Positions 16,836-51,376 of a DNA stretch of 64,000 bases are shown in pieces. The stretch's first letter is position 1. The number at the start of each line of letters is the position of its first letter. The stretch comes from a virus. The DNA lies in IMG/VR virus record IMGVR_UViG_3300046660_000488, positions 186,001-250,000 of that record; one strand, written 5' to 3'. Both the position numbers and the translations under genes were made by a program. The notes beneath the pieces are model-generated. The model had not been told where the DNA came from. It saw only the letters and a program-made list of their open reading frames with translations, and searched no databases.

Positions 16836-19800
16836 TTAGCCCCTCGGGAAGGGCTTATTCGGCGGGGTGAAATTCGCCGTGTAACGAGCGACCCCCTTGG
16901 TGTAGCGGAAATCGTTGATCTGACCGATGTGGCTGTTGCCAGCCGCTTGGGTCTCATAACCACCGACCGTCAGGCGTTTCGTACCGGCCGCCAGCGTTCC
17001 AGTGAAACTGGAGTTCGTGGCGAACTGTGTACCGTTCATGTAGAAACGGCTGACGCCCGAGGCTCGGGTCCAAGCCATGTGAACCCATTGATCCTTCGGG
17101 AAGGTGACACCGCCAAGCGCGACCGAACCACCACCGACGTACAGGGTGATGACACCAGTCGCCGTCGTGTAGAAGATCGTGTCATTGGCCGTGCCAGCGT
17201 TGTAGGCGCCGAAGAAATTGTCGAAGCCGCCCGTGCCGTAGGCCGTCTTATAGAACCATCCTTCCATGGTGAAATCGCCGGATGCCGCCAGAGCGCCGTC
17301 CGTGTTGTCGATGTACATGAACTGGTTGACCAAGGACGTGAGCGACGACGATCCCCACTTTCCGCGAACCGTCGTGATGGTCGAGGCGGTGGTGATCGTG
17401 CGGCCAGACTTCAGTTCGACCGGAGCCGAACCCTGCGCGCCCGTGAGAGGCAACAGGACCATGGTGTTGGCATAGTACGGATCGACCGGGGTCGAGCCCA
17501 CGTATTCGACAGCGAACGTCTGGTCGGCGGTGTAATCACCAACCGAGGCGCGGACGACGATGTTGCTCGTCGCCGAAGCCACGCCCGTGTTCGCGAACGA
17601 ACCGGTGAGCGTGCCATTGCTGTTGAACGTGACGCCGCTCGGGAGCGTGCCCGACACCAGCGAGTAGACCGGCGTTGCCTGCGACGGCGAGGTCGCAACG
17701 ACCGCCGCCGTGTTCAGAACCGTGTTGGCATAACCAGCCGCGACCGTGGCGTTAGCAGCGGTCGTAAACGTCGGCGCGGCCAGACCGCCAATCGCGTCCG
17801 GCGGGGTGAAGGTCGCGGTGTAGCGAGCCTGACCCACCGTCATGCGGAAATCGTCGATGTAGCCGTTGAACTGGTAGCCGTGGGTCGAGTCCGTCGTGTA
17901 CGGGTAGAGGCCCAGCGTGATCGCGTCGGAATTGACGTTGAACGGGATCGCTCCGGCCGCTGTCGTCGATCCAACTTGGACACCGTTCAGCCACAGGGTG
18001 AAGGTCGTGCCACGACGTTGCAGAGCAATGTGATGCCACGTTCCCGTCGTGATCGGCAGGCCGAAGACGCCGTTCAATTGGAACACGTATCCGCTGGCGT
18101 CGGCGTTCTGACCACGGAATTCGACGGCCGTGATCGTGTTCGCATTACCAGCACCGATGGTTCCACCGTAATAGTAGAACTGGATCGCCTTACCGGCATT
18201 GCCGCCGCTGTTCGTGCCAATCGAAATGATCTCGCTCAGCCAACCATCCGCCGTCGCGACCAGAGCCGTGATGTTGGACTTGAACTCGATGGTCCAATCC
18301 TTCGTGCCGAGGTTGAATGCCGCCGGGAGACCGCTCGAACGGATGTAGTTGGTCAGGACGTTCTGGGCGCCGGTGACGCTCAGAGCGCCGGTGTTCAGCG
18401 GCGTGGACTTTGCAGTGCTGTATCCCCCGTTGCCCGAACCCGCCCACGTGATCAGACCCATGGAATCGGTCAGGGTCGGGTTGGCGCGCAGCACCGACAA
18501 CGTGTTGGCGATGAACGGATCGGCTTCGTTGGTGATCGACAGCGTGGCGTCGCGGGTGAAGCCCGTGGCCACGGCCGTGATGGTCGAGTTGGCCGTAGAG
18601 TTGGCAATCGACGTCGCACCAAAGAGCAGACCAGAGTTGCTGATCGACAGACCCGCAGGCAGAGCGCCAGCGGTCACCGTGTAGGTGGTGGCAGGAGGAG
18701 CCGACAGCGGCAGGAGCACCGATGCGTTCGCCGACGTGCGATAGGTCATCGCATTGTTCGTCCACGTCGGAACCGGGTTGCCCATCGACGGGAACGGCGC
18801 GGACGGCGGTGTGAAAGTTGCCGAATAACGGGCTGTTCCAACCGTGATGCGCGGCTCATCCATGTAACCGTACATGTTGTACTGGAAGCCGTTGATCGAC
18901 GTGCCACCAAGGAACAAGGTTGAAGTCGCCTGTGCTTGGAGTGCGGCCGAACCGATAGCCGTGTTGGCAACCGGGGTCAGCTTCACACCGTTGACGAAGA
19001 AATTGATGACCGTTCCTTCGCGCGTGACAGCAACGTGGTTCCACGTGTTCAGCGTGAAATTGGCTCCCATCGCCGCGTAGTAATCGGCGATGACGCCACC
19101 CGACGTGTTGTACGCACGGAACTTGATGTTCGTCGGCGTGGTCGCGTTGGAACCTTGGATGCCAACGTTCCACGAGTGCGTCTGGTTGTTCGTCACATCC
19201 GGCGCCACGTAGGCCATCAGCGTGGACAAGAAAATGTCGTAGGTGCTGACGTTCGACAGGTTCACCCAGCTTTCGATGGTGAAATTGCTGCTTCCGATGA
19301 CCACAGAGTTGGCCTGCGTGCGAGCAAGGTTCCCCGAGTTCCAGTCGTTGGTGTTGAAGAAGAGCGCCGTGTTGCCGAATTTCGACGACGCAGCGCTGAT
19401 TTTCGCGTTGCCAAGATAGATCGTGTTACGACCCGTCGTGTCCGTGGCGTAAGTCACCACGTTGGCTTGAGCATCGGCGTGGTACAGGAACGCGACGTTC
19501 GAGAAATTCTGGTCGAATTCGGCCAGCGTCGTGTAGGTGTAGCTCTTGGTTTTCGACCGACCGGACGTGTCCGTCGCCTTGATGACGAAGGTGTTGTCGG
19601 TGTTGGTCGAGACGTCGGCGAGAACGCCCGAGACTGTACCGGCGTTGGTCAGCACCGTGTTGCCCGGCAGAGTTCCGGACATCAACGTGTAGGTATTTAC
19701 CGCAGCGCCGTTCGCCACGGCGGTGACCGGGATGGCGACGTTGGCGGTCTTGTAGAATGCACCCAGTGATTGGGTCTTGGTCGTGAACGACGGGCCGTTG

Positions 19801-22800
19801 TCTTGGAAATTACCGAAGGCGGCAGTCGGCGGCGTGAAGGGTTCGACGTAACGAGCAACGCCCGGCGTAACGCGCATTTCGTCCATGTAGCCGTTGAACG
19901 CGCCTTGGAAGTTGTTGATGTTGATCGAGCCGTACTGCATGAACGTCTGGCCTGCGATCATCGGCTGCACGAAGCCAGCCGGAAGCTGCAAGGTCGCGAC
20001 CATGTTGCCGTCGATGAATGCGGTCAGGCTGTCACCCTTGCGAACCAAGGCGAAGTGGTGCCATGCGTTCAGCGACACAGCCGGGATCGGAGCACCAAAT
20101 TGCGCGCCGGGGACCAGCGGGCCGGTGTCGGTCGCGTAGCGGGTCTGGATTGTCAGGTAATCCATCGCCGGTGACGTGTTACCGATGAAGATACCCAAGT
20201 GGTTGCCGATGTTGTTCGACGTATTGCCGTTCGTCAGGTTGAGCAAGCAAGAAGCATAGCCCCCGTTGCTATGGGTCGTCAGACCGGACGAATAGAAGAA
20301 CAGTTCGAACGTGTAGTCGTTGGTTCCGAGCGTCGGCATCAAACCCGTACGAACGATGGAGTCCACCGCGCCGTTGAACTTGATCGAAGACGAACCAAAC
20401 TTGGCCTGCTCCGTGCTGATGACCGCTTGCGATCCTAGCGTGTACGTCGGGAAGACGTAGCCGTTATCGGTCAGGTCTTCGGCATGGATGAGCGACGCAA
20501 CATTGGAGTAATAGACGTCACCCGTCGTACCCAGAAGACGATAAGTCCGCGACGGGGTGGTGCGACCATATTGGTCGGTCGCCGAAACCGCGACGTTGGC
20601 GTACACGCCATCCGCCGGACCGGGGCCGGTTACCAGACCATTTGCGGCGGCGGTGTAGCCGTTGGAGACCGTATAGCTGACGGTAGCGTTGCCGAACGTC
20701 GTCGCCGGAGTGGCCAACGCGATAGCAGCATCCGCCTCAACGTTTGCAGTCGTCGCAGCCGTGAAGTACGGTTGGAAGAAGCTCTCCCAAACCGGCGTGA
20801 AGTTTTCGGTGTACTTGGCGATTGACCAGATGTTCAACGAGCGAACATAGGTGTTCATCAGGTTGTTGACCGAACCGGTGTTGCCGTTGTCGTACGCACC
20901 CAGCGTCAGGTTCTGCGAATCAAAATACGTCGAGGCCGGGGTAACCACGGTAACCGTCGCGGTCAGTGTGCCGTTGAGGTACATCCGCATCGTCGTGCCG
21001 ATCTTCACCACAGCAAGGTGGGTCCACACGTTGAGCGTGGTCGCACCGATCTGGCCGGTCGATCCGTTGTACGACCAATTCCACGTGTTCGTTCCCGGTG
21101 CGTAGACGATGTTGAAGCGTTCTTGAGTCGTGCCGACGTTGATCAGGATGCGAACCGTGGTGGTCCCCGGCGTTGCCGTGGCGTAGACCCACGTTTCGGC
21201 CGTGAAATCACCGACCAGTGCGCGAATGCTTGTCGTACCCGAGGTGAATTTAGCGACCGCCGCGTTGAAGTAAGCACAGGTTTCCCCCGGATAACCCGGC
21301 GCCACAGCCATGAGCGGGCCAGCGGCGTAGGTGATCGGAGCGACCGTGCCGACTTCCGGCGTTAGGGTCGTGTAGGCCACGCCGGTGTTGGCGTTGTTCA
21401 GACGCCACGACAGTGACAGCGCGTTGGCGGTGGTCAGGGTCGGGGCGACACTGAAGGTGCGGGCCGGGGTCTTGTTGCCGTTGCCGTCCGTCGCAATAGC
21501 ATCGAACGACACGGCCGTGGCAGTGTAGGTCGGATACGAACCGGTGATCACACCGTTGCTCAGCAGGCTCAGGTCGCCGGGCAGGGTCGAGTAGGACGCC
21601 AGTGCATAGGTGAGGTGACCGGTCGCATACGGATCGGTCGAGACGAGAGCCACGTTGCTGACGGCCGACTTTTCGTTTCCGCTGGAAACGACACCCGAAA
21701 GCGTCGTCCACTTCGGCAGGCTCGGCGACGAGACCGGAACGTCGTAGCTCGCGCCGGAATAACGCGCAGCATTGGTCAGACGGACTTCGTCGATGTAGCC
21801 GTTCAGACCACGGTGGGTCGCCGTGGCGTCACCGTTGATCAGCAGCGGCGTCGTCAGGTTCTGACGGGTGTACTGCGACGTGGCGACGCGAACGCCATCC
21901 ATGTAGAAAGTCAGGTTCGAAGCGCTGTCGCCGACGATGGCGATGTGATGCCATTCATTCAGCGACACGGCGTTGGCCGAAGCCGCCGTGACCGTCGATC
22001 CGCCCGTGCCCGTGTAGTAGACAACACCTTCCATCTTGCGGTCCGATCCGCGAACGCGCATCGCGAAATTGACCGAAGCATCGGCGTTTTTCTTCAGGAG
22101 GACAGTCGAGTTAGCCGTCTGAGAGGACGTCTGGTAGAACCATCCTTCAACCGTGAACGGGGCCGAGGTCGAGATCGAGTTGAAGGCATAGTTGCCCGAG
22201 GTCGAAGGAAGCGACAGGGCGACCGTGTTGGCGACCGCCAGTGCAGCGTTGCCGAACTTCGAGAAAGACGTGCTCGGAACAACCGAACCGCCCAGTTGTT
22301 GGGTCGGAATGGCGTAGTAATCTTGCAGCGGCATCTGCATTGCAGCAGTCGGGACGGTGATCGTCGCACCCGAATAACGAGCTTGCCCGACAGTCACGCG
22401 GAAGTCGTCGAAGTTGCCGACGTAGGCGTTGTTCGCGACACCACCGGCGCCGAACAGGAAGCCCGACGCTTCGGTCAGGTTGTAGCCCGGAACCTGCGTG
22501 GTGAACGAGCGCGTGCCGTCGAGGTAGCCCGTGAAACCGGTCGCATCACCTTGGATGACGACGTGGTGCCAGTTGGTGTCCGCGACGGTGCCCATGGTCA
22601 TCGGGATGCCAACGCCATACTTGATGTTGAAGACATTTCCAGCCGAGAAATCGAACAGCAGCGAGTTGGCGGTCGCGCCGTTGCTGCCCAGCCATGCCAG
22701 TCCTTCGTACAGACCGATGCGCGAACGCTTGAACCAGAATTCAATGGTGAACGCTTGGGTGTTGATCGCGCCGTTCGGGAACGCCAAATTGGTGGTCGAG

Positions 22801-25800
22801 TTGAGGGCGATAGCCATGCTGGCCGTGCCGAACTTGATGTTGGTCGTGTCACGGCTGTGTCCCGAACCGGTCAGTTGGTTCGACGAGCCATAATTCAGCA
22901 AATCAGCGTCGGCGGGGATGAACGAAACGACGTTGGCCCAGTACTGATCAACCGTGTCGTCGTAGTGGCCCAGATAGGCGACGGCGTTGGAGTAATTGTC
23001 GCTGAAAGTCGTATCGCGCAGGACGGTGATGGCGAACGAACGGTCTGCGAAGTTGCCAACCGGGTCAGTGACGCGGACGTCGAACGGCGTTGTGGTATCC
23101 GCACCAACCGTCGTCGGAGCGCCACGGATGACGCCGTTCGAACCGTACAGCGTCATGCCGCTCGGAACGGTGGTCGAGTTGACCAGCGAATAAACCAGCG
23201 CACCATTTTCCGGATCGGTCGCCGACAGCGTGAACGTGCCGTTGACGCCTTCGGTGACGTTGCCCAGCGTTCCGGCCGGGGTGACCCAGACCGGCGGACG
23301 GTTGTCCAGAACGGTCAGCGAGAAGGTGCGAGCCGTGGACAGCGTGCCGTCCGAAGCATCGACCGTGAAGTTGTAGGCCGTGTTGGAGGCGACGTTCGGC
23401 AGAGCGCCGACGACCAGACCGTTAGAGCGCAGCGCCAGTGTGCCCGGCAGGGTCGAAGCGTTGAGGCTGTAGGTGACCGTCTTGCCTTGCGGATCGACGG
23501 CGAGCAGCGTGGTGCTGTAGCCCGTGTTTTCCAGACCGCTCGGCAGAGCGCCAGCGTTCGTGGTCCAGACCGGAGCCGTGTCCTTCTGCGAGGTGATCGT
23601 GAAGGTACGATCCGAGCGGATCGCGCCGTCGAAAGCGCCCAGCGTGAAGGTGTAGACGGTGTCGGTCGAGACAGTCGGCAGGTTGCCGCTCAGAACGCCG
23701 TTGGCGGCGTCGAAGGTAGCGCCGTCAGGAAAAGCGCCGGAGATCAGCGAGAGTGTGACGGGCGTGCCGTTCGGATCGGTGGCGACGAAGGTCTTGGAGA
23801 AAGCCGTGCCAGCCAGATCGGTCAGGACGTTGCCAGCAGCCGTCGTCCAGACCGGAGCCACGTTCAGTTGAACCGAGATCGAGAATGCACGATCCGTGGT
23901 CTTGTTGGTGAGCTTATCCTTGGCCGTGATGTAGAACGGATAGGTCGTGTCGTTGGTGACCGCCGGAAGCGTTCCGCTGATGACGCCGGTGTTGGCGTTC
24001 AGGGTCATGCCGCTCGGCAGGAATTCTCCGGTACGGACCGAGTACTCGATGGGGTGACCGTTGGCGACAGCGTTGACCGTGTAGGACTGCGCGGTTTGCT
24101 CCAGAGCCGAACCCAGCGAACCCGCAGCCGTGGTGAACGACGGCGCGGCCGAGAACATGACCGTGTAGCTGAAGCTACGCGACGAAGTGCGCTTGGAATC
24201 CGAGGCCGTGACCGTGAAATTGTAGTCGGTGTCGGTCGAGACCGTTCCAATCGTGCCCGAGATCAGGCCCGTGAACGGGTCCATGCTGAGGCCGCTCGGG
24301 AGCGAACCCGAGGTGATCGAAAGCGTGACCTGTTGGTTTTCCGGATCGGTGACAACCACCGTGTTAGAGACCACGGTTCCTTCGATGTACGTACCGAACG
24401 AACCGGCCGGGGTCGTGAAGACCGGGTCAAGGTTCTTCAGCACCGTGATGCTGAAGGTGCGCTGAACAACGTTGTTGCCGTCCGTGACTTCGAACGTGAA
24501 GGTATAGGTCGTGTCGGTGTAGGTGAGCGGAAGGAACGCACCGCCCGTGCTGATGTAATTGCCGCTGACGGACATGTTCGGCGGAAGCGTGCCGCTGACC
24601 ATGGTGTAGGTGAGCGGCAGGCCTTCCGGATCGGTCGCCACGACGCTGAAGCCAGCGGTGTAGCCCGAGAGGGCCGTGCCCAGCGAACCAGCAGGCGTGG
24701 TCCAAACCGGCGGAGCGTCGGTGGCCACGGACATGGTGAAGGCGCGGTCGGCATAATGGATGCCGTCCGAAGCACGAACCGTGAAATTGTAGGACGTCGT
24801 GGTCGTCACGTTCGGCGTCGTGCCGGTGATGACGCCAGCCGGGGTCATGCCCATACCAGTCGGCAGAGCGCCGCTGATGATGCTGTAGGTCATGACCTGA
24901 CCTTCGGAGTCAGCCGCCGACAGAGCGACCGAAACCGATTTGTTCTTGATGAAATTGCCCAGCGAACCGGCCGGAGTGATCCACGTCGGGGTGCTGTCGG
25001 CCAGCAGCGTGATGCTGAAAGGACGGTCGGCGCTCAGGACGCCATCGCTGGCGCGAATCGTGAAATTGTAGGACTGGCCTTCCTGAGACAGCGTCGTGAT
25101 CCGGCCGCCGATGCTGCCGTTGATCAGAGACAGACCAGTCGGGAGCGCGCCTGACACGACGCTGTAGGTCAGCGACTGGCCATTGGCATCCGTGGCGCTC
25201 AGATTGATGTTGACGGCTTCGTTGGTGCTGAAGCTACCCAGCGAACCGGAAGCCGTGACCCACACCGGAGCCACGTTCTTCTCGACGCGCATGGTGAAGT
25301 CTTGTGTGGCGTCCTTGATGCCGTTGAACGCCTTGATCGTGAAGGCGTAATCTTCAGCATCCGTGACCGCCGGGAACGAGCCACTGAGCAGGCCGCTCTT
25401 GGACATCGTGATGCCGACTGGCAGGACGCCGCTCTCCAGCGTGTAGATCATCGGACCATTGCCGACGCCGCTGGCTTCGAGTTGACGGCTGTAGGCCAGA
25501 CCTTCGATTTGCGTGCCGAGGCTCGGGTTCGTGATCCAGACCGGCGGCGAGTTGAACTTCGTGGTGATCGTGAAGGTGCGCGCCGTGCGGCTCGACTGGT
25601 TGTTCGAATTGTCGTCCGCGTACAGCATGAAGCTGGTCGTGACGTCGTTGTTCACCTTCGGAAGCGAACCGTTGATCACGCCCGTCGCCTGATTGAGCGA
25701 CAGACCCATCGGCAGGATGTTGCCCGGTGCGTTGTAGAAGGCAATCGGACGGCCTTCCGGATCATTCGCCGCGATGGTGGCGCTGAACGGCATGGTCTCG

Positions 25801-27611
25801 AAAGCCGAACCCAGCGAGCCAGCAGGCGTGATCCACACCGGCGGCAGGTTGACCTGCACGACGAGGGAGTAGGCTTGGGCGACCGGAGCGTTGACGCCGT
25901 CGCTGGCGCTGATCGTGAAATTGTAGGTGGTCTCGCTTCCAACGTCCGGCGTGACGCCGCTGATGAGGCCCGTGGAGCCGTTCAGCGTGATACCGGCCGG
26001 AAGCATGCCCGCCGTGATCGAATAGGCCACAGACGTGGCGTTGGGGTCTTGGGCGACCAGTTGCGCGGAGAAATCCGACTTGCCGAGCACAGTGGCGATC
26101 AGGCCAGCGTTCGACACCCAGATCGGCGGGATGTTGTTGCGGACCACGAAGGAAAACGTCTGCGTCGTCTTCTGCTCACCGATGGCGGCTTCGACGTCGA
26201 AGCTGTAGTTGGTATCCGACGCAACCGTGCTCAGCACGCCGCCCAGCAGACCGGTGTTCGCGTCGAGGTTCAGACCAGCCGGGAGCGCGGCCAGAGCCGT
26301 GTAGGTGACCGAACGGTTGGCGCCGGTGCTGTCCGTGGCCTTCAGGGTCTTCGAGACCGGATAGCCTTCGATGCCTTCGCCCAGATCAGCAGCGGTGTTC
26401 CACACCGGCGGCATGTTCTTCAGGGTGGTGATTTGCAGGCTGCGCGACGCGGCGTTGACGCCGTCGTTGGCGACGACCGTGAAGTTGTAGTTGGTGTTGG
26501 TGACGACATCCGGAAGCGTGCCCGAGATCGTGCCCGTCTCTTCCATGGTCAGGTCGCCCGGCAGGGTCGAGCCATTGGCCAGAGTATAAGTGACGAGGTC
26601 GCCGTTCGGATCGGTCGCGTGGGCGTTGAGGACGATGAATTCGCCGCCGAAGCCTTGACCGATCTTGCCAGACGAAATCCAGACCGGTGGGACGTTCTTC
26701 TCAACCTTGATGCGGAAGGTGCGGACCGTGCTCTTGAAACCGTCCGTGGCGGCCACGTTGAACGGGTACATCATGTCGCGGCCAACCGCCGGAGCCACAC
26801 CGGCGACCACGCCCGTGTTGCCGTCGAGGACGATACCGTCCGGCAGAGTTCCGGCGTCGAGGCGGAAGGTAACCGTCTGGCCAGCCGTCGCGTCGGTGGC
26901 TTGCAGTTGGACGTTGAAGGGCTTGCCTTCGACGACCTTGCCGCCGAGATCGCCGCTCAGATAGTCCGGCGTGATCCAGACCGGCGGGGCATTGTACTTG
27001 GTCTGGAAATTGAACGCGCGGTCGGCGGTCATCGTGCCGTCAGAGGCGCGGACGGTGAAGAAGAAATTGGTGTCATCGGTGACCGACGACAGACGGCCGC
27101 TGAGCAGGCCGGTGTTGGATTGCAGCGTCAGACCGCGCGGCAGGGAGCCCGTCAGGACCGAATAGCTGACCGGTGTGCCTTCCGGATCAACAGCTTCGAG
27201 TTGGACGCTGGCGAGGGTGTTGTCGAATTGCGAACCGAGCGACCCTGCGGCGGTCACCCAGACCGGGGCAGAGTTGACAGTGACGTTGGCGGAGAACGTG
27301 CGGGTGGCGGTCTCGCCGTTCGACGTGGCCGACAGTGTGAATTCGTACGAGCCCGCGATGTTGTTCAGCGTGCCGTAGATCGTGCCGGTGTTGATGTCCA
27401 GAGCCGTGCCGGGCGGGAGCGTGCCGCTCTCCAGCGAGAACACCGGCGCCGGACCATTGATGACGCGAACGCGATTGGTCTCTGCAATGTCCGAGCTACC
27501 GACGAACGAGCCGATGTCCCCTTCCGGCGGCGACAGCCAGTCGATCAGGGTCTTATTGGTTGCTGCTTGGTTCAGCCAAGTAAGTTTCAGGCCGTCGTAC
27601 TTAATACCCAT
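16836..27611 (-). CDS. Giant tail fibre / adhesin with Ig-like and LamG-like repeats
   Basis: 3591 aa, the largest gene here. Residues 1 to about 1530 carry about sixteen repeats of 85-95 aa with the putative-Ig (He_PIG/cadherin-like) signature: PVW(V/I)T.AGSLG, DPEG.P..YS, LP.GL.L...TG...G, then TDT.Y.F.V.ASDG. From about 1530 to the end there are seven LamG/concanavalin-like modules, each with WHH.A, a LYLNG-type hairpin and a closing (D/E)(D/E)xRxTxGxARY stretch; the C-terminus ends FTPPNKPFPRG. The start MG(I)K(Y) is shared with the 1801-aa fibre at 42441. These domains bind glycans or proteins, so receptor binding is the likely role. It has a late promoter about 64 nt upstream and a terminator after it. 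Confidence 0.85.
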   Translation of the reverse strand: MGIKYDGLKLTWLNQAATNKTLIDWLSPPEGDIGSFVGSSDIAETNRVRVINGPAPVFSLESGTLPPGTALDINTGTIYGTLNNIAGSYEFTLSATSNGETATRTFSANVTVNSAPVWVTAAGSLGSQFDNTLASVQLEAVDPEGTPVSYSVLTGSLPRGLTLQSNTGLLSGRLSSVTDDTNFFFTVRASDGTMTADRAFNFQTKYNAPPVWITPDYLSGDLGGKVVEGKPFNVQLQATDATAGQTVTFRLDAGTLPDGIVLDGNTGVVAGVAPAVGRDMMYPFNVAATDGFKSTVRTFRIKVEKNVPPVWISSGKIGQGFGGEFIVLNAHATDPNGDLVTYTLANGSTLPGDLTMEETGTISGTLPDVVTNTNYNFTVVANDGVNAASRSLQITTLKNMPPVWNTAADLGEGIEGYPVSKTLKATDSTGANRSVTYTALAALPAGLNLDANTGLLGGVLSTVASDTNYSFDVEAAIGEQKTTQTFSFVVRNNIPPIWVSNAGLIATVLGKSDFSAQLVAQDPNATSVAYSITAGMLPAGITLNGSTGLISGVTPDVGSETTYNFTISASDGVNAPVAQAYSLVVQVNLPPVWITPAGSLGSAFETMPFSATIAANDPEGRPIAFYNAPGNILPMGLSLNQATGVINGSLPKVNNDVTTSFMLYADDNSNNQSSRTARTFTITTKFNSPPVWITNPSLGTQIEGLAYSRQLEASGVGNGPMIYTLESGVLPVGITMSKSGLLSGSFPAVTDAEDYAFTIKAFNGIKDATQDFTMRVEKNVAPVWVTASGSLGSFSTNEAVNINLSATDANGQSLTYSVVSGALPTGLSLINGSIGGRITTLSQEGQSYNFTIRASDGVLSADRPFSITLLADSTPTWITPAGSLGNFIKNKSVSVALSAADSEGQVMTYSIISGALPTGMGMTPAGVITGTTPNVTTTTSYNFTVRASDGIHYADRAFTMSVATDAPPVWTTPAGSLGTALSGYTAGFSVVATDPEGLPLTYTMVSGTLPPNMSVSGNYISTGGAFLPLTYTDTTYTFTFEVTDGNNVVQRTFSITVLKNLDPVFTTPAGSFGTYIEGTVVSNTVVVTDPENQQVTLSITSGSLPSGLSMDPFTGLISGTIGTVSTDTDYNFTVTASDSKRTSSRSFSYTVMFSAAPSFTTAAGSLGSALEQTAQSYTVNAVANGHPIEYSVRTGEFLPSGMTLNANTGVISGTLPAVTNDTTYPFYITAKDKLTNKTTDRAFSISVQLNVAPVWTTAAGNVLTDLAGTAFSKTFVATDPNGTPVTLSLISGAFPDGATFDAANGVLSGNLPTVSTDTVYTFTLGAFDGAIRSDRTFTITSQKDTAPVWTTNAGALPSGLENTGYSTTLLAVDPQGKTVTYSLNASTLPGTLALRSNGLVVGALPNVASNTAYNFTVDASDGTLSTARTFSLTVLDNRPPVWVTPAGTLGNVTEGVNGTFTLSATDPENGALVYSLVNSTTVPSGMTLYGSNGVIRGAPTTVGADTTTPFDVRVTDPVGNFADRSFAITVLRDTTFSDNYSNAVAYLGHYDDTVDQYWANVVSFIPADADLLNYGSSNQLTGSGHSRDTTNIKFGTASMAIALNSTTNLAFPNGAINTQAFTIEFWFKRSRIGLYEGLAWLGSNGATANSLLFDFSAGNVFNIKYGVGIPMTMGTVADTNWHHVVIQGDATGFTGYLDGTRSFTTQVPGYNLTEASGFLFGAGGVANNAYVGNFDDFRVTVGQARYSGATITVPTAAMQMPLQDYYAIPTQQLGGSVVPSTSFSKFGNAALAVANTVALSLPSTSGNYAFNSISTSAPFTVEGWFYQTSSQTANSTVLLKKNADASVNFAMRVRGSDRKMEGVVYYTGTGGSTVTAASANAVSLNEWHHIAIVGDSASNLTFYMDGVRVATSQYTRQNLTTPLLINGDATATHRGLNGYIDEVRLTNAARYSGASYDVPVSSPSLPKWTTLSGVVSSGNEKSAVSNVALVSTDPYATGHLTYALASYSTLPGDLSLLSNGVITGSYPTYTATAVSFDAIATDGNGNKTPARTFSVAPTLTTANALSLSWRLNNANTGVAYTTLTPEVGTVAPITYAAGPLMAVAPGYPGETCAYFNAAVAKFTSGTTSIRALVGDFTAETWVYATATPGTTTVRILINVGTTQERFNIVYAPGTNTWNWSYNGSTGQIGATTLNVWTHLAVVKIGTTMRMYLNGTLTATVTVVTPASTYFDSQNLTLGAYDNGNTGSVNNLMNTYVRSLNIWSIAKYTENFTPVWESFFQPYFTAATTANVEADAAIALATPATTFGNATVSYTVSNGYTAAANGLVTGPGPADGVYANVAVSATDQYGRTTPSRTYRLLGTTGDVYYSNVASLIHAEDLTDNGYVFPTYTLGSQAVISTEQAKFGSSSIKFNGAVDSIVRTGLMPTLGTNDYTFELFFYSSGLTTHSNGGYASCLLNLTNGNTSNNIGNHLGIFIGNTSPAMDYLTIQTRYATDTGPLVPGAQFGAPIPAVSLNAWHHFALVRKGDSLTAFIDGNMVATLQLPAGFVQPMIAGQTFMQYGSININNFQGAFNGYMDEMRVTPGVARYVEPFTPPTAAFGNFQDNGPSFTTKTQSLGAFYKTANVAIPVTAVANGAAVNTYTLMSGTLPGNTVLTNAGTVSGVLADVSTNTDNTFVIKATDTSGRSKTKSYTYTTLAEFDQNFSNVAFLYHADAQANVVTYATDTTGRNTIYLGNAKISAASSKFGNTALFFNTNDWNSGNLARTQANSVVIGSSNFTIESWVNLSNVSTYDIFLSTLMAYVAPDVTNNQTHSWNVGIQGSNATTPTNIKFRAYNTSGGVIADYYAAMGANFTLNTWNHVAVTREGTVINFFVNGVKLTPVANTAIGSAALQAQATSTLFLGGTSINGFQYNMYGYMDEPRITVGTARYSATFTPPSAPFPSMGNPVPTWTNNAMTYRTSANASVLLPLSAPPATTYTVTAGALPAGLSISNSGLLFGATSIANSTANSTITAVATGFTRDATLSITNEADPFIANTLSVLRANPTLTDSMGLITWAGSGNGGYSTAKSTPLNTGALSVTGAQNVLTNYIRSSGLPAAFNLGTKDWTIEFKSNITALVATADGWLSEIISIGTNSGGNAGKAIQFYYYGGTIGAGNANTITAVEFRGQNADASGYVFQLNGVFGLPITTGTWHHIALQRRGTTFTLWLNGVQVGSTTAAGAIPFNVNSDAITLGLYPYTTDSTHGYQFNGYIDDFRMTVGQARYTATFTPPDAIGGLAAPTFTTAANATVAAGYANTVLNTAAVVATSPSQATPVYSLVSGTLPSGVTFNSNGTLTGSFANTGVASATSNIVVRASVGDYTADQTFAVEYVGSTPVDPYYANTMVLLPLTGAQGSAPVELKSGRTITTASTITTVRGKWGSSSLTSLVNQFMYIDNTDGALAASGDFTMEGWFYKTAYGTGGFDNFFGAYNAGTANDTIFYTTATGVITLYVGGGSVALGGVTFPKDQWVHMAWTRASGVSRFYMNGTQFATNSSFTGTLAAGTKRLTVGGYETQAAGNSHIGQINDFRYTKGVARYTANFTPPNKPFPRG

Positions 27612-31608: not shown

Positions 31609-31684
31609 GGGGTTCTCCTCGTGAAAGTTGTATCGAAACCCTACATACCACATCCCCGGCATAATGCAAGCCCTATTCTTTGAA

Positions 31685-31707
31685 CTGTGCTTGTTATGGA
31701 AGCACAG
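31685..31707 (+). repeat. Inverted repeat CTGTGCTT/AAGCACAG
   Basis: Eight-base arms around a 7-nt loop. The same arms recur at 54726-54749 with an 8-nt loop. It lies between the minus-strand operon and the promoter of the putative structured RNA. Confidence 0.6.
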
Positions 31708-31755
31708 ATGAAACGGGGACTTGCGCTAAATCGACTCTGCGGGAAATGACTCAAT

Positions 31756-31785
31756 TTGACACAACCTTAGATTCGATTCTATACA
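31756..31785 (+). promoter_or_regulatory. Strong sigma70-like promoter of the non-coding region
   Basis: Consensus TTGACA (31756-31761), 18 bp, TATACA (31780-31785). The predicted start is near 31792. No reading frame of note follows for nearly 800 nt. Confidence 0.65.
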
Positions 31786-31791
31786 GGGACT

Positions 31792-32530
31792 CATATTCGT
31801 TCAGAGCATTATCATCTTCAGCGGCCATGCTCGTCGCGACAACTGGAAAAGGTGGGGCTCACACAGGGTGACCCACGCAGGGGCTGAACGGCCAAGGGAC
31901 GGACGCTCCACGCGGACTGAGCATTAAAGCGCGCGATGAAGGCAACGGCTTCCCACTGTAGACCCTACGGTCTACGACAAAGGCACTGAACAATGATGAG
32001 AGTCGTGTCTTGACCATTTGACACCTCTCTGCACATGGCGGTTCTTTCGACGCCGACCATGTGTGCTTGGCCCTCACGGGCCATAACCGTCTGACATATA
32101 ACGTTCACCAGCTACGCAAGGCAGTCCAATGAAAAGGCGTTCGACGCACATTGAGACAACATGCCCCAAAGGAGCACTCTTCAGGTGGAACAAGTCGGGA
32201 TTGGGTTGCTACAAGCAGGTCTAGGGAGACCGCCTGCTGCCGCTATAGACGCGGCTAAGTGACTACGAAAAGGCTATACGAACTCAGGGCGTTATGCTTC
32301 ACTCCTCCTCTCCGGTACACGTTTCAGTCCAGCACTTCAGACGCATTTTTGTGTCTGGATGCTTGTGACTGGCGTGGACACCGGAGAGGGGGAGAAAGAG
32401 ACCTTAAATCTAGGGCATATGGGATTTGAAAGTTTAAGGCCAAAAGGCCAGATTGAAAGCCCAAGCAGTGGGATGAACGGAGCGCAAGCGGAGTGATTCC
32501 CCTGCTTGCTCAGGGGGCAAATGCCCCCTG
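31792..32530 (+). ncRNA. Candidate large structured RNA (about 740 nt)
   Basis: Gene-free stretch (31609-32580 has no supported CDS) with dense base-paired elements on the plus strand. Helices: 31958-31975 GTAGACC/GGTCTAC; 31998-32029 GAGAG-tc-GTGTC/GACAC-CTCTC; 32032-32063 CACATGG/CCATGTG; 32068-32083 TGGCCC/GGGCCA; 32137-32147 GCGT/ACGC; 32218-32231 GGTCT/AGACC; 32239-32255 GCCGC/GCGGC; 32302-32316 with 32380-32394, a 15-bp helix with one G-U, enclosing CAGTC/GACTG, AGCA/TGCT and the 8-bp hairpin 32338-32357; 32402-32408 with 32433-32439 CCTTAAA/TTTAAGG; 32511-32530, a 9-bp hairpin. Size, phage setting and several hairpins in direct succession recall ornate phage RNAs such as GOLLD or ROOL, but I could not match their conserved cores. 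The 3' end is uncertain. Confidence 0.6.
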
Positions 32531-32541
32531 AAGCCGAAAAT

Positions 32542-32552
32542 CTGGTTGACGA
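32542..32552 (+). promoter_or_regulatory. YTGGTNRACSA site with embedded -35
   Basis: CTGGTTGACGA, identical over 11 bases to the site at 11444. It contains the TTGACG of the promoter for the next gene. Confidence 0.5.
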
Positions 32553-32573
32553 AATCGGAAATTGTGCTACACA
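32546..32573 (+). promoter_or_regulatory. Sigma70-like promoter, leaderless arrangement
   Basis: TTGACG (32546-32551), 16 bp, TACACA (32568-32573), preceded by TTGTGC. The predicted start is about 1 nt before ATG 32581, and there is no Shine-Dalgarno sequence. Confidence 0.55.
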
Positions 32574-32580
32574 GTTCCTC

Positions 32581-35212: not shown

Positions 35213-38071
35213 ATGAGCCTCTACAAGGACACGGTCTTCCTCCCGACCACGTCTTTCACCATGCAGCGCCCGACCATCGCGGACGAGGCGGCTATGGTGC
35301 GCTCGTGGGGCCACCTCTACCAGAATTATGGGCCGCGCTCCGTCGATCTGACGGATGACGATCCGTTCGTCCTGCACGACGGCCCGCCATACGCCAACGG
35401 CGACATCCACATCGGCCACGCGATGAACAAAGTCCTCAAGGACTTCATCGTCCGGTCGCAGCGTGGCATGAACAAGTCCGTGGACTATCGTCCGGGCTGG
35501 GACTGCCATGGCCTGCCCATCGAGACGCAGGTCGAGAAAATCCTGCTGGAAGAAGGCGTGCAGAAGAAGCGCCTTGGCCCGGTGGCCTTCCGCGACCGCT
35601 GCCGCGAGTACGCGCAAGGCCAGATGGACAAACAGCGCGACCAATTCAAAGCGCTGGGCGTCATGGCCGACTACAAGGCCCGCTATTCCACGATGGACTT
35701 CGCCTCCGAGGCGGCCATCGCCGACCGCTTGCACCTGCTGCTGGTCGCCGGGCTGCTCTATCGCGGCAAGAAGCCGATCCTGTGGAGCACCATCGAGGAA
35801 ACGGCCTTGGCTGAAGCCGAGGTCGAGCACAAGCCGATCAAGGTCACCAGCGCCTATGTCGCTTTCCGCATCTACGCCGAAGGCAAGGACATGCGCGACC
35901 CTTCGGCCGAGTATGTGATCGCGCCGATCTGGACCACCACGCCGTGGACCATCCCGGCCAACCGCGCCATCGCGTTCAACCCCGCCCTCGAATATCGCCT
36001 GTACCGTGTCCTGCATGCGGCTGGAACCGTCCTGAACCACGGCGAACAACTCGTGCTGGCCAAGAGCTTGGCTCCGAAGGTTCTGGCCGAGCTTGGCGTG
36101 ACCGAATGGGAAGAGCTTGAGCGCTACGAGTTGGCGGGCCGCGAGTACTACAGCCCGCTGGCCAATGGTGGCTCCAGCTTCGTCTACAACAACTCCATGC
36201 CGTTCATCGTTGGCAACCACGTCACCGACGCCATGGGCACGGGTCTCGTTCACACGGCTCCGGACCACGGTCCGGATGACTATGCCTGCTGGATGAAGTA
36301 CTGCGAAGACGGCGCCGGTAGCGAATTCTACCCGATCTTGAACGCGGACGGCACGTTCAGCGAGTTGATCCCCGGCATCGGCGGGATGAACGTCCTGAAC
36401 CAGACGCCCAAGGGTGAGTACATCTTCGAGTACACCAATGCGGTGATGATCGAAACGCTTGGGTCCGCCGTTCTCGGCCGGGCCAAGGTCGAGATCAGCT
36501 ATCCGCATTCGTGGCGCTCCAAGGCGCCGCTGGTCTACCGCGTCACGCCGCAGTGGTTCATGTCCGTGGACGACGACCTGCGTGGCATCTGCGACAAGGC
36601 CATCGACGAGGTTCTGTTCCCGCCGGGCCAAGAGCCCAGTAAGGAACGTCTGAAGGCGTCGATGGCGTCGCGCCCGGACTGGCTGATCAGCCGCCAGCGC
36701 TGGTGGGGCACGCCTCTGGCGCTGTTCTTCCACAAGGACACGAACGAACCGCTGCGCGACGAGATCGTCAACGCCCGGATCGTCGAAACCTTCCGCGAGG
36801 AAGGCGGCAATTCGTGGTGGGAGCGGCCCAAGACCTATTGGCTCGAATTGGCTGAGGTCAATCCGGACGATTACGTGCAGTGCATGGACGTGCTGGACGT
36901 GTGGTTCGACTCTGCCTCCAGTCTGGCGCTCATCGAGTTTGGTCAGGCTGACCTCTACCTCGAAGGTACGGACCAGCATCGTGGGTGGTTCGGCTCGTCG
37001 CTGCTCCAGCAGTGCGCGATCCTCGACACCTACGTCGAGAATTACTACGCCCCGTTCGCCCAACTGGTGACGCACGGTTTCGTGCTCGACGCCAAGGGCG
37101 AGAAGATGTCCAAGTCCAAGGGCAACGTCATCCCGCCTGAGAAGGTTGTTGCCGACTATGGGACCGATGTCCTGCGGTTGTGGGTCGCCACCAGCGACTA
37201 CACGCAGGACATCCGCGCCGGGGACAAAATCTTCGACAGCGCGGCCGACATCTACAAGAAACTGCGGTTGACGATTCGCTACCTGCTGGGCGCCCTGCAA
37301 GGGTGGTCCGACGACGAGTGGACGCGGCCATCCAGCCCGCTGGAGAATTTCGTCCTGTCACGGATGAACGATCTGAACGAGGACGTGGCCAAGGCTTACG
37401 CCGAGTACCGGTTCAACGACGTGGTGCGGATGGTGATGAACTATTCGTCCAACACCCTGTCGTCGTTCTTCTTCGACATCCGCAAGGACACGCTCTACTG
37501 CGACCCGTTGATCTCGTCGGTCAAGCGTCGGGAATACCGGACGGCTCTGCTGCAATTGCTGCAAGCGATGACCGCATGGCTTCAACCCATCGTCCCGTTC
37601 ATGATGGATGAGGCGTTCGTGGCGCTCGGCTGGAGCCGGGACCAGCGCATCATCACGCGCGGCTACCCCATCGATTTCGCCGACGACGAGAAGAAGGCGT
37701 TGGAGGACCGTTTCGGCTGCGTGTTCGAGGTGTTGGATTTCGTCAACGACCAGTTGGAAGCCCTTCGCCGCGACAAGACGATCAAGACCGGGCTGGACCT
37801 GTTCATCCAAGTCCACATGCCCGAGCGCCACTTCAAGGCGTTCGAAGGTCTGGACGCGGCCGAAATCCTGCGGGTCAGCCAAGTCGGGCTGTTCGTGAAC
37901 CCGAACCCAAAGGACAACGAGTTCAAATTCGCGCACTACCCCGCCAAGGGTGAGCGGTGCGAGCGCTCGCGCCGGTTCTTCTACGACGTCGGCTCCGACC
38001 CAAACCACCCGACCCTGTCGGCGCGCGATGCGCTGGCGGTCGAGGAATACAAATTCATCAACCAGCCATGA
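35213..38071 (+). CDS. ileS: Isoleucyl-tRNA synthetase
   Basis: 952 aa, near full bacterial length (about 940), charging tRNA-Ile. HIGH is intact at 66-69 (NGDIHIGHAMNK) and KMSKS at about 631-635 (GEKMSKSKGN). The editing (CP1) domain region is present between them, with WTTTPWTIPANRA. The C-terminal zinc knuckle, normally two Cys pairs, is degraded: only the first Cys of CERSRRFFYDVGSDPNHP remains and the last pair has become SARD. The next gene's ATG overlaps its stop. A phage IleRS might resist host-directed attack on translation or suit the phage codon load; that is inference. Confidence 0.96.
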   Translation: MSLYKDTVFLPTTSFTMQRPTIADEAAMVRSWGHLYQNYGPRSVDLTDDDPFVLHDGPPYANGDIHIGHAMNKVLKDFIVRSQRGMNKSVDYRPGWDCHGLPIETQVEKILLEEGVQKKRLGPVAFRDRCREYAQGQMDKQRDQFKALGVMADYKARYSTMDFASEAAIADRLHLLLVAGLLYRGKKPILWSTIEETALAEAEVEHKPIKVTSAYVAFRIYAEGKDMRDPSAEYVIAPIWTTTPWTIPANRAIAFNPALEYRLYRVLHAAGTVLNHGEQLVLAKSLAPKVLAELGVTEWEELERYELAGREYYSPLANGGSSFVYNNSMPFIVGNHVTDAMGTGLVHTAPDHGPDDYACWMKYCEDGAGSEFYPILNADGTFSELIPGIGGMNVLNQTPKGEYIFEYTNAVMIETLGSAVLGRAKVEISYPHSWRSKAPLVYRVTPQWFMSVDDDLRGICDKAIDEVLFPPGQEPSKERLKASMASRPDWLISRQRWWGTPLALFFHKDTNEPLRDEIVNARIVETFREEGGNSWWERPKTYWLELAEVNPDDYVQCMDVLDVWFDSASSLALIEFGQADLYLEGTDQHRGWFGSSLLQQCAILDTYVENYYAPFAQLVTHGFVLDAKGEKMSKSKGNVIPPEKVVADYGTDVLRLWVATSDYTQDIRAGDKIFDSAADIYKKLRLTIRYLLGALQGWSDDEWTRPSSPLENFVLSRMNDLNEDVAKAYAEYRFNDVVRMVMNYSSNTLSSFFFDIRKDTLYCDPLISSVKRREYRTALLQLLQAMTAWLQPIVPFMMDEAFVALGWSRDQRIITRGYPIDFADDEKKALEDRFGCVFEVLDFVNDQLEALRRDKTIKTGLDLFIQVHMPERHFKAFEGLDAAEILRVSQVGLFVNPNPKDNEFKFAHYPAKGERCERSRRFFYDVGSDPNHPTLSARDALAVEEYKFINQP

Positions 38072-42051: not shown

Positions 42052-42264
42052 TCAAATCAGCAACCCAACGATGTTTTTTGAGCAGGAAGCGATGATGGTG
42101 ACCGTCCCGAGGGCGAAACCGCCCCAGAACAAGCTCCTGACCTGCATGAGTTTTTCAAGGTCCACGATCCCTCGGTGCATGTCGTTTCGAAGCTTGGCGT
42201 AGACGATAAAGCTCGTGGTGACCGCCGCGAAGGCCAGCCACCCCATCATTGATAATGTGGACAT
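42052..42264 (-). CDS. Small two-pass membrane protein
   Basis: 70 aa. Membrane segments at about residues 6-23 and 46-67, joined by a charged loop (KLRNDMHRGIVDLEKLMQ). Size and layout resemble pinholins or superinfection proteins, without a match. Upstream is an AT-rich region separating it from the divergent fibre gene. Confidence 0.6.
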   Translation of the reverse strand: MSTLSMMGWLAFAAVTTSFIVYAKLRNDMHRGIVDLEKLMQVRSLFWGGFALGTVTIIASCSKNIVGLLI

Positions 42265-42409
42265 CGTCCCAGCTTATCAAGCCGTCATATTATCGTAAAC
42301 TAAAATCTAAAATTGTGGTTTACCGTTGTAAAAATCTCCTTACGGTAGCAATACTCAAATGGGGTTTCAGTACAGATCAAACCATCGTATACCCTTATAT
42401 TCTATTGCC

Positions 42410-42415
42410 TAAATA
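42410..42415 (+). promoter_or_regulatory. T4-type late promoter core of the second fibre
   Basis: CCTAAATAC, predicted start near 42421. A small hairpin CCTCGAA/TTCGAGG (42416-42432) overlaps the transcript start and lies just before the ATG at 42441. Confidence 0.6.
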
Positions 42416-42440
42416 CCTCGAAATATTCGAGGGCTATCCT

Positions 42441-45400
42441 ATGGGCGTTCGCTACCAAGGTAAATTCAAGCAAATCAACACTCAACACAACGTGGGCAAT
42501 CGCCCGCCGGTTTGGGTGACTGATGCGGGTCTGATCGACACGGTCGATGAGTCCACGTCCTATTCCTATGCTTTCGAGGCAGTGGACCCGGAAGGCGGTC
42601 AAGTCGCGTACGCCGTTCACAGCGGCAATTTCCCGCTGGGCCTGACGCTGGCCGCTGACGGCACGGTGAGCGGTACGCTCCCGGCGGTCGCGACCAACAC
42701 GTCCTACACCTTCACCGTCCGCGCGGCGGACCCGGAAGGCGCTTACGCCGACCGCCAGTTCATCATCATGGTGGTGGACACCAACGCTCCGCCCGTCTGG
42801 CAGACCGCCAGCGGTTCGCTGGGTAGCGTGAACGAAGGCAACAACTTCACCTCGACCCTGTCGGCCACCGATCCGGAAGGTCAAGCGGTCAGCTTCGCTA
42901 TCTCGAACAACAGCCTCCCCTCGGGCCTCTCACTGGCCGCCAACGGCCTGATCAGCGGCACGACGACCGTTACCGGCGCGAACGCCCTTTCGGTCTTCAC
43001 GGCCCGCGCTACGGACCTCGACGGCGCCTACGCCGAACGCAATTTCTCGATCCTCGTGGTTCACAGCACGACCAAGCCGGTCTGGGTCACGAACTCGGCT
43101 CTGTCGGGCAACGAGCGCACCTCGTACTCGACCACGCTGGTCGCCAACAACGCGATCTCCTACACCATCACGTCGGGCGCTCTTCCGTCCGGCCTGACCT
43201 TCGACCAGTACTCGGGTGAGATCACCGGCAACCTCCCGGCCGTCTCGACCAACACCGGCTACAATTTCACGGTCACGGCCTACAGCGCCGACGACTCGAC
43301 GGCCCGCAATTTCACGCTGACCGTTGTCAACGTGAACGATCTGCCGGTCTGGTCCACGCCGCGTAACCTCGGTTCGCAACTGGAAGGCAACACGGTCAGC
43401 ATCCAACTGACGGCTTCCGACACCCAGTCGCGCACGATCACCTACAACTATTCGAACGGAACTCTGCCGACCGGCACGACCCTGTCGAACACCGGCCTGC
43501 TCAGCGGCACGCTGGCAAACGTCGCCATTGACACCCAGTTCGACTTCGACGTTCTGGCCACCAACGAAGACGGCTCGACCGCTCGCAACTTCAACCTGAC
43601 TGTTCTGGATTCCGGCGCGGCCGTCGCTCCGATTTGGGTGACCTCTACCCTTCCGAACGTCAACGAGCGCGAAGTCTACAACACGACCGTCGTGGCCAGC
43701 ACAGCCACGAGCTACGCGGTCACGGCTGGCTCGCTCCCCGCTGGCCTGTCCCTGAACGCCAACACCGGCGCCATCACCGGCACGGCTTCGAGCGTCAGCA
43801 GCAACACCACGGCCAATTTCACGATCACGGCGACCAATGGCGCTGGCTCGACGCCGCGCGCTTTCTCGATCACGGTGACCAACGTTGTCACGGCCCCTGT
43901 TTGGGTCACGAATGCAGCCCTGCCTTCGGCTTACGAAAGCGCTCCGGTATCAATCCAACTGCAAGCCACGGACGTCGAGAACCGCACGGTCACCTATTCC
44001 CGCCAGACTTTCGTGGGCGCCCCGCAACCGCCGGGTGGCCTGACACTGCTGGCCAACGGTCTACTCTACGGAACGCCGTACGCGGTCAACGCCAACACCA
44101 CGAGCACGTTCATCCTGAACGCGGTCAACGCCGATGGTTCGACGCCGCAGCAGTTCTCGATGACCATCCTGAACAACGCATCCCTGCCGATCTGGGATAC
44201 GTCATCGGGCTTGCTGTTCGAGGCTGACGAAGGCACGAACATCGTGACCATCGGCGTGGCCAACACCATGCAAGCTCACGACTCGCTGGGTCGTTCGATC
44301 TCGTTCTCTATCGCCCAAGGCTCCATCCCACAGACGGCCGCTCTCCACCCGAGCGGCTATTTCTACGGAACCTTCCCGAAGGTCCAAGCCGATACAGACT
44401 ATGATCTGGTCATCGCCGCAACAAATCCGGACGGCTCGTCCTATCAGAACATCACGATCCGCAATAAGAACGTGGCGACGGCTCCGACGTGGAATACGGC
44501 CGCTGGCAACCGCGCCTCGGCGACCGAAGGCTCGGGTTCGTTCAACTTCACCCTGTCGGCCTCTGGTGCTGACGGTACGCCGGTCACCTACTCCATCGTT
44601 GACGGCGCTCTTCCGGCTGGGGTCACGCTGAACCCGACCACGGGCAACATCAGCGGCTCGGCTCCCCGCGTCGCCAACACGACGGTCTACGATTTCACCG
44701 TTCGCGCCGACACCGCAGAGGCTTATGCCGACCGCGCGTTCTCGGTCACGGTCAACAACAACGCGGTCGTCCCGGTTTGGCAGACGGATGGCGGATCGCA
44801 AGGCAACTATTACGAGAACGAAGATTTCCAAGTCTTCTATTTCACGGCTACCCACCCGGACCTCCCGGTCCTGTACCGTCTCGCCGCGAACTCGGCTGTT
44901 CTGCCTTCCCCGATGGTTCTCAACAGCAACGGCGCCATCACCGGCGGCACGCCTCCGGTTGACGGCGGCGGTTCGGTTGATTTTACGCTGGAAGCTTACA
45001 ACTCGGATGGCGTTTCGGCTCGTCGTGCATTCTCGATTGGCGTCATCGACCGTGGCGGCGCCCCGGTCTGGGTCACGCCGAGCGGTTCGCTGCTCACGGC
45101 TAACGAGCGCACGCTGGTCAGCAACACGGTTGTCGCTACGCCTAGCGCCAACTCGAACGCCCTCACCTACACCATCCTCAGTGGCGCTACGCCGAACGGC
45201 GTTGTTCTGGCCGCCAACGGCCTGATCAGCGGCACGCTGGCTGGCGTCACCGCCAACACGACGTCGTCGTTCACGATCCGTGCAGCGACGCCGGATGGTC
45301 ACGCCGACCGTGCGTTCTCGATGACGACGATCAACATCCCGGCCGCACCGGTCTGGGTCACGAACTCGGCCCTTCCGGACCAGAACGAAGGCACGGCCAT

Positions 45401-50368: not shown

Positions 50369-51376
50369 ATGCGTTACATGACAGTGTGCAGCGGCGTTGA
50401 CGCGGTGTCCCTTGCTTGGGAACCGCTCGGCATGACGCCGGTGGCATTCTCTGAAATCGAAGAGTTCCCGAAGGCAGTCCTTGCCCACCGATGGCCGCAT
50501 GTCCCTGATCTGGGCGACCTGACGAAGATCGAGGGCAAGGACTGGGCTGGGAAGGTGGACATCCTGTGGGGGTCCACGCCCTGCCAAGCCTTCTCGCTTT
50601 CCGGCCGGAGAGCGGGGCTGACGGACCCGCGTGGCGCGATCACGCAGGCCTTCGCCGATCTGGCCGACGACATCAATCCAGACTTCGTGCTCTGGGAGAA
50701 CGTAAAAGGGGTCTTTAGTGACAAAAGCAACGCCTTCGGATGCTTACTCGGGGCGCTGGCCGGAGAAGATGTGCCTCTCGTCCCACCAAGGGGCGGATGG
50801 ACGCACGCTGGTTATGTGCTTGGACCAAAGCGCAATATCGCATGGCGACTCTTCGATGCCCAATATTCAGGAGTTCCGCAACAGCGCGACCGCGTGTACC
50901 TTGTGGCCTGTCCTTCAGACGGACTCGACCCAAGAGACGTTCTATTTGAGTCGCACACGAGCAGCCAAACTCCTCCGAGTGGCACAATCGCGCGGAAAGA
51001 CCTTGCCGCCGCTCTTGGCTACAGCGCTGGAGAACGTGCGTTCTCGGCCGCCCTCCGAGGCCGCGACGAAGGCGAGCAAATCGAAATCGGCAACGACGTA
51101 GCCAACTGCCTGCTGGCCGTGGCTGGCGGGTCGTCGGTTCCGATGGCCTTGGTCGATGACGGTGTGTTCCCGGTGGTCCGGACCCTGACGCCTATCGAGG
51201 CCGAGCGCCTGATGGGCATGCCGGACGATCACACCCTGATCCCCGGTCAACCGGGCGGGAAGACGGCCCGCTACAAGGCCATCGGCAATTCGCTGAACGT
51301 CAAAGACGTGCGGTGGATCGGTGAGCGCATTATCGAAACGGTGTTTTTCAGTCCTCGTAAAGGTGAAGCTCGATAA
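50369..51376 (+). CDS. C5-cytosine DNA methyltransferase
   Basis: 335 aa. SAM motif CSGVDAVSLAWE (7-18), catalytic PCQAFSLSGRR (71-81), ENVKG (110-114), QQRDRVYL near 170 and the final RLMGMP...KAIGNSLNV (about 282-315) are all present, so an active enzyme is likely. The target domain lies between about 190 and 275 and its site cannot be read. Phages use such enzymes to hide from host restriction. Its 3' end overlaps the convergent gene by 29 bp. Confidence 0.9.
   Translation: MRYMTVCSGVDAVSLAWEPLGMTPVAFSEIEEFPKAVLAHRWPHVPDLGDLTKIEGKDWAGKVDILWGSTPCQAFSLSGRRAGLTDPRGAITQAFADLADDINPDFVLWENVKGVFSDKSNAFGCLLGALAGEDVPLVPPRGGWTHAGYVLGPKRNIAWRLFDAQYSGVPQQRDRVYLVACPSDGLDPRDVLFESHTSSQTPPSGTIARKDLAAALGYSAGERAFSAALRGRDEGEQIEIGNDVANCLLAVAGGSSVPMALVDDGVFPVVRTLTPIEAERLMGMPDDHTLIPGQPGGKTARYKAIGNSLNVKDVRWIGERIIETVFFSPRKGEAR

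Follow-up and report, generated by a model that had tools for sequence, protein, structure and literature searches.

A conserved folded RNA family, selected for its structure and previously uncatalogued, was shown to occupy an ORF-free interval of a giant phage genome. The family very probably represents a new, stand-alone class of structured RNA of huge phages that acts in trans. This estimate does not cover self-assembly, which is considered separately below. A large structured RNA had been proposed for this interval in the initial annotation; the analysis added a 5′ pseudoknot, a GNRA-capped three-way junction, a long-range helix and three more copies in the same genome.

The source is a 578,292-bp virus record, of which bases 186001-250000 (64,000 nt) form the analysed window. 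In its best segment, the large terminase shared 60% identity with the enzyme of Agrobacterium phage Atu_ph07 (490 kb), which identifies the source virus as a giant tailed phage. An alphaproteobacterial host is a guess drawn from this relationship. A nucleotide search of the annotated phage collection gave no relative. The interval 31609-32580 is flanked by a minus-strand gene (probable TTG start near 31608) and a plus-strand gene (start near 32581). It had been described as holding no gene, and neither strand has a notable ORF between the flanking genes. A conserved protein encoded there would speak against an RNA; all frames across the RNA were interrupted in every member, each with at least two stops within approximately 640 nt. 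The fold of the locus RNA was more stable by 31 kcal/mol than the average for its dinucleotide shuffles (z = -5.4), with 0 of 20 shuffles as low.

Other genes identified in the window code for a class I aminoacyl-tRNA synthetase (Ile/Leu/Met/Val group, 952 aa, 35213-38071, plus strand), a threonyl-tRNA-synthetase-like protein (435 aa, 7418-8725, plus strand) and a glutamine-dependent NAD synthetase (59200-60936, minus strand). Two neighbouring DNA methyltransferase genes were present (50369-51376, plus strand; 53452-54408, minus strand), one of which encodes a C-5 cytosine methylase. Two giant ORFs of 3591 aa (16836-27611, minus strand) and 1865 aa (42249-47846, plus strand) contain many internal repeats with about 55-78% DNA identity, some of them common to both ORFs.

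Diverged copies were located at approximately 97, 389 and 539 kb when the genome of the phage itself was searched at the nucleotide level. All four copies in this genome can be aligned for about 650 nt, within which islands of invariant sequence stand out. The threonyl-tRNA synthetase, DNA patterns and the large terminase led to related giant phages, and copies were sought with a covariance model (R1) of a 132-nt core built from six sequences. In total 18 members (about 40-60% identity) were found in 8 contigs, 14 of them in 7 other IMG/VR phage contigs. The R1 core model found exactly 4 copies in the 578,292-bp genome of the window. The other carriers were IMGVR_UViG_3300046665_000548 (607 kb, 3 copies), 3300046616_000314 (561 kb, 2 copies), 3300050120_000230 (415 kb, 2 copies), 3300047496_000214 (40 kb, 1 copy), 3300021979_000001 (457 kb, 4 copies), 3300025534_000004 (148 kb, 1 copy) and 3300042892_005063 (107 kb, 1 copy). 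Carrier contigs above 400 kb thus held 2-4 copies each, and these numbers are lower bounds because contigs of uncultured viruses come without stated completeness. The weak copy in 3300046665_000548 (E = 3.5e-4) still has the downstream junction and the terminal helix.

Several other relatives of at least 400 kb, including the cultured Agrobacterium phage Atu_ph07, had no copy even with an 18-sequence model, so the wider clade as a whole does not require the RNA. When 84,980 genomes of bacteria and archaea were scanned once with a pattern, 55 matches came up, none convincing by the core model (best E = 0.017). Searching IMG/VR with an exact degenerate pattern of junction hairpin E gave 0 matches. 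Several candidates were rejected. A viral pattern match (L155) looks coding, a nucleotide match in another genome (L024 in G003) was due to chance, and a match of core model R2 in G041 (E = 0.002) fell inside a 579-aa ORF resembling a recombination nuclease.

The features of the locus, in window coordinates, are as follows.

31756-31782, plus strand: promoter, with TTGACA at 31756-31761, 13 nt, then GATTCTAT at 31775-31782.
31788-32440, plus strand: structured RNA body with putative start and 3′ end, aligning with the 3 paralogs and the 14 copies elsewhere.
31804-31837, plus strand: 5′ H-type pseudoknot, GAGCAT 31804-31809 with ATGCTC 31827-31832 and GCGGC 31821-31825 with GTCGC 31833-31837.
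31852-31876, plus strand: helix P2, GTGGG 31852-31856 with CCCAC 31872-31876, read by eye.
31958-31975, plus strand: hairpin P3, GTAGACC with GGTCTAC, followed by conserved AAAGGCAC.
31998-32029, plus strand: hairpin P4, GAGAG 31998-32002 with CTCTC 32025-32029 and GTGTC 32005-32009 with GACAC 32020-32024; UUUGAC is conserved.
32032-32063, plus strand: hairpin P5, CACATGG 32032-32038 with CCATGTG 32057-32063.
32045-32270, plus strand: long-range helix, P5 loop TTTCG 32045-32049 with CGAAA 32266-32270.
32068-32090, plus strand: hairpin P6, TGGCCC 32068-32073 with GGGCCA 32078-32083, running into conserved CATAACCGT at 32082-32090.
32127-32153, plus strand: hairpin P7, CAATG with CATTG, inner GCGT with ACGC.
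32205-32263, plus strand: three-way junction, closing helix GTTGC 32205-32209 with GTGAC 32259-32263, plus hairpins E and F.
32215-32237, plus strand: junction hairpin E, GCAGG 32215-32219 with CCTGC 32233-32237, GNRA-capped as GG[GAGA]CC.
32239-32255, plus strand: junction hairpin F, GCCGC 32239-32243 with GCGGC 32251-32255.
32281-32288, plus strand: conserved box AACTCAGG.
32302-32394, plus strand: terminal long helix, CTCCTCCTCTCCGGT 32302-32316 with ACCGGAGAGGGGGAG 32380-32394, enclosing an inner arm.
32405-32414, plus strand: conserved box TAAATCTAGG.
32510-32531, plus strand: 3′ hairpin, TCAGGGGGC to GCCCCCTGA, terminator-like with no T run.

The promoter had been annotated as TTGACA with TATACA. 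The TTGACA box at 31756-31761 was confirmed and is conserved, but TATACA at 31780-31785 is not the conserved -10. The conserved downstream box is GATTCTAT, which begins exactly 13 nt after TTGACA and a few bases before TATACA. TTGACN-N13-GATTCTAY stands ahead of 12 of the 18 copies (same spacing, with no more than one mismatch in the 8-base downstream box), and TTGAC or a near variant was found in nearly all of the members. Over whole records the strict pattern had 3 occurrences in the genome of the window and 2 in G009, always at RNA copies, while the reversed pattern used as a control had 0 matches in both records. The search pattern was built from these same promoters, so the scan shows absence elsewhere rather than discovery. 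A promoter match in LR756511 at 441799 was discarded, having no RNA alongside and a position that appears coding. The conserved promoter suggests that the locus would be transcribed into an RNA about 650-750 nt long that is not translated. The 3′ limit of the transcript may extend to the hairpin ending at 32531, parts of which (TCAGGNGG and CCNCCTGA) were found again after the paralogs at 97 and 389 kb.

Covariation among relatives, which had been proposed as a test of the RNA, was present and very strong. The 18-member alignment was fitted to the covariance model, which favours its pairing statistics, and in its 133-nt core 94.6% of cells were paired and 19 of 21 pairs showed changes on both sides. 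The covariation score of this core was 0.697, compared to 0.05-0.21 when partners were slid and 0.245 in shuffles, and 0 of 500 shuffles reached it. A structure-free alignment of the first six sequences gave 96.8% pairing, both-side changes in 14 of 21 pairs and a score of 0.632 compared to at most 0.19. RNAalifold predicted 85 pairs from the four same-genome copies, and for 44 of these pairs one or more sequences had both sides changed. The promoter, the pseudoknot, the three-way junction with its GNRA hairpin, AACTCAGG and the terminal helix lie outside the search model and recurred in sequences that only the core model had been used to find. Since they were not in the model, the promoter, the GNRA hairpin with its junction and the terminal helix give independent support for the new members.

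The arms of the pseudoknot, the junction and the P5-loop helix were picked by eye beside conserved anchors, so pairing figures of 100% are optimistic and the informative part is arm diversity. Of the 18 members, 17 could form both pseudoknot stems, for which 11 and 15 distinct arm combinations were counted (arms chosen by eye). Helix P2 appeared in relatives as CCGG/CCGG, CTGG/CCAG and GCCGG/CCGGC, read by eye and without statistics. The four hairpins that had been noticed at 31958-32083 (P3 to P6) recur in relatives with compensatory changes, the first of them by eye. The P3 stem varies in nearly every member (a by-eye reading with no count), most pairs of P4, which lies within the R1/R2 core, show double changes, and P5 has both-side changes in 7 of 7 pairs with 96.8% of cells paired. 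CATAACCGT was found in most members. Hairpin P7 is clear only in a subset, the others having no P7 or a different form.

The closing helix of the junction and hairpin E showed full pairing in 18 of 18 members and hairpin F 95.5% (by-eye arms). The pairing of the closing helix and E was also seen in an independent column count. Hairpin F was misaligned by MAFFT, which makes its column count of 34.6% uninformative, and its arms were anchored by eye. The long-range helix, in which the P5 loop pairs with the strand that follows the junction, could form in 15 of the 18 members; its arms (chosen by eye) make 14 distinct pairs of 5-11 bp, for example CCTCAAATT/AATTTGAGG and GTTGCTCACAA/TTGTGGGCAAC. 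It was also predicted by RNAalifold from the four paralogs. The 15-bp helix annotated at 32302-32316 and 32380-32394 held up, with a long helix of different sequence at that place in nearly all members. A T-loop-like hairpin (stem-UGCAANU-stem) was observed in the variable 5′ domain of copies L007 (about 1558-1582), L055 and L083; its stems differ greatly among the three, one example being CCGG-UGCAAGU-CCGG.

Two syntenic loci, sites X and Y, were identified in five phages each, with flanking proteins only about 25-60% identical. Site X copies are L007, L022, L046, L055 and L153, and site Y copies are L009, L045, L083, L061 and L151. The copy in the window lies at neither site. Site X has a divergent gene on one side (five phages) and an RNase H-like exonuclease gene on the other (four phages). 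By eye the divergent gene looks like a small hydrolase; a Pfam scan of it gave no match. In its five phages, site Y has a small conserved protein on the upstream side, a DnaJ protein on the downstream side, or both. The DnaJ gene at L009 (216-1097, minus strand) encodes a J domain and a C-terminal domain, and its relatives lie beside other site Y copies. Copies tend to cluster within genomes and not by site. Trees grouping all X copies (AU p = 0.013), all Y copies (0.026) or both together (0.003) were rejected, with base composition differing among the genomes and a noisy alignment. Exchange between copies within a genome would explain the clustering and is only a lead; such exchange would be in keeping with RNAs that have to match each other.

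The gene at 32581 is close and co-oriented, and site X copies precede the co-oriented exonuclease gene in four phages, as might be expected of a cis-acting leader, that is, a long riboswitch-like 5′ UTR controlling the gene at 32581. However, the neighbouring genes are unrelated between loci, the next gene after the 389 and 539 kb copies is convergent, and the hairpin at 32510-32531 stands between the RNA and the gene. Because the neighbours are unrelated and sometimes convergent, the RNA is taken to act in trans, and a leader is improbable. A mobile catalytic RNA, either a group I/II intron or an OMEGA/HEARO-type nuclease guide RNA, could account for the multiple copies and the complex fold. 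The copies are, however, intergenic with their own promoter and at conserved syntenic sites, no intron or guide family rose above chance in Rfam, and no such nuclease or reverse transcriptase was recognised among the examined neighbours; this origin is extremely unlikely. Replication origins often sit in phage gaps, and the conservation might reflect such an element, a packaging site or a small protein gene. The interrupted frames, the compensatory helix changes, the G-U pairs and the conserved GNRA and UUUGAC loops fit an RNA instead, as do the 2-4 copies per genome and the promoter at a fixed distance, leaving a protein gene or DNA-level element hardly credible.

Length, phage origin, a pseudoknot and a GNRA-type hairpin recall ROOL and GOLLD (PMC12286853), and a divergent member of ROOL, GOLLD, OLE or HEARO could have been missed by the Rfam models. 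Against this, none of 4227 Rfam families matched beyond chance in the window and 16 other loci, at E ≤ 10 for the window and its 3 paralogs and E ≤ 5 for the 13 further loci. Together with the covariation and the interrupted frames, this supports the initial proposal of a large structured RNA, possibly of a new class, for which a run against Rfam had been suggested. The models for OLE, HEARO, group I/II introns, tmRNA and RNase P had no match in the scanned loci, and GOLLD had none in the window and 16 loci, in a search that had no GOLLD positive control. MicroRNA and snoRNA matches were dismissed as chance matches on long hairpins. The ROOL model (RF03087, family cut-off 99.1 bits) recovered the ROOL of plasmid pMP118 as a positive control (130.4 bits, E = 1.1e-29) and had 0 matches at E ≤ 10 in seven carrier contigs. 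Reciprocally, the new core model had no match in the ROOL locus. As the Rfam, ROOL-model and reciprocal searches were negative, the RNA was not filed under a known family, and a missed divergent member is quite unlikely. No paper describing the RNA was found in a search that covered mainly the open-access literature.

For the favoured reading, a stand-alone RNA acting in trans, the following working model is proposed. RNA polymerase would start at the promoter common to these RNA genes and produce the untranslated RNA of about 650-750 nt. This would fold into the 5′ pseudoknot, the P3-P6 hairpin chain, the GNRA three-way junction, the loop-to-linker helix and the long terminal helix, and would work in trans, not on the adjoining gene. 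Copies from the 2-4 paralogous genes would fold and probably join through loop-linker pairing, as in ROOL and GOLLD, and the product would serve in infection as an RNA particle or as the scaffold of an RNP. Self-assembly as such, suggested by this analogy, is a somewhat doubtful possibility; otherwise the RNA would function as a monomeric RNP or in some other way in trans. The P5-loop helix is by the same analogy a natural candidate for an intermolecular contact and could equally be intramolecular. More speculatively still, paralogous RNAs at two ancient sites, possibly homogenised within each genome, might co-assemble through the P5-loop/linker helix into a homo- or hetero-oligomeric RNA particle, a new class of viral RNA machine with a part in megaphage infection that no known RNA plays.

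Natural RNAs of such size and structure are few (ROOL, GOLLD, OLE and raiA) and two of these are RNA-only cages. A further family from giant phages offers an independent test of whether large phage RNAs commonly form cages. The 18 diverged sequences are enough for guiding structure determination and for a covariation search for intermolecular contacts. The megaphages give several kilobases of tightly packed genome to RNA and not to protein.

OLE is likewise an ornate RNA, about 600 nt long, which dimerises and functions as an RNP (PMC12286853, PMC9723947), but it is bacterial rather than phage-encoded. Phage ICP1 has a comparable unclassified noncoding RNA of about 800 nt in a gap of roughly 1 kb that lacks ORFs, and this RNA is the most abundant ICP1 transcript in infection (PMC7567579). 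Core model R2 had no match in the ICP1 gap, its sole weak match being in a coding region. GOLLD resembles the new RNA as a large, ornate, multi-domain phage RNA in which a GAAA loop is conserved and loops pair with linkers, and it forms a 14-mer cage (PMC12286853). It accumulates during lytic growth and is dispensable in one prophage (PMC7567579). GOLLD is often longer than 800 nt and may carry tRNAs and sit near tRNA islands, whereas the new RNA has none of these traits. ROOL is phage- or prophage-encoded, about 570-660 nt long (env-120, 659 nt), with an elaborate covarying structure, pseudoknots and loop-linker pairing (PMC12286853). It has no known protein partner or function and forms an RNA-only octameric cage, and the covarying loop-linker pairings of ROOL and GOLLD are intermolecular bridges (PMC12286853). 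Unlike ROOL, the new RNA occurs as 2-4 paralogs in each genome and has a promoter specific to the family. ROOL often lies by tRNA islands, which is not obligatory; here the RNA is phage-encoded and the one tRNA of the 64-kb window is about 16 kb from the locus. Long, covarying and pseudoknotted, the new RNA is of the same functional kind as the large ornate noncoding RNAs of phages.
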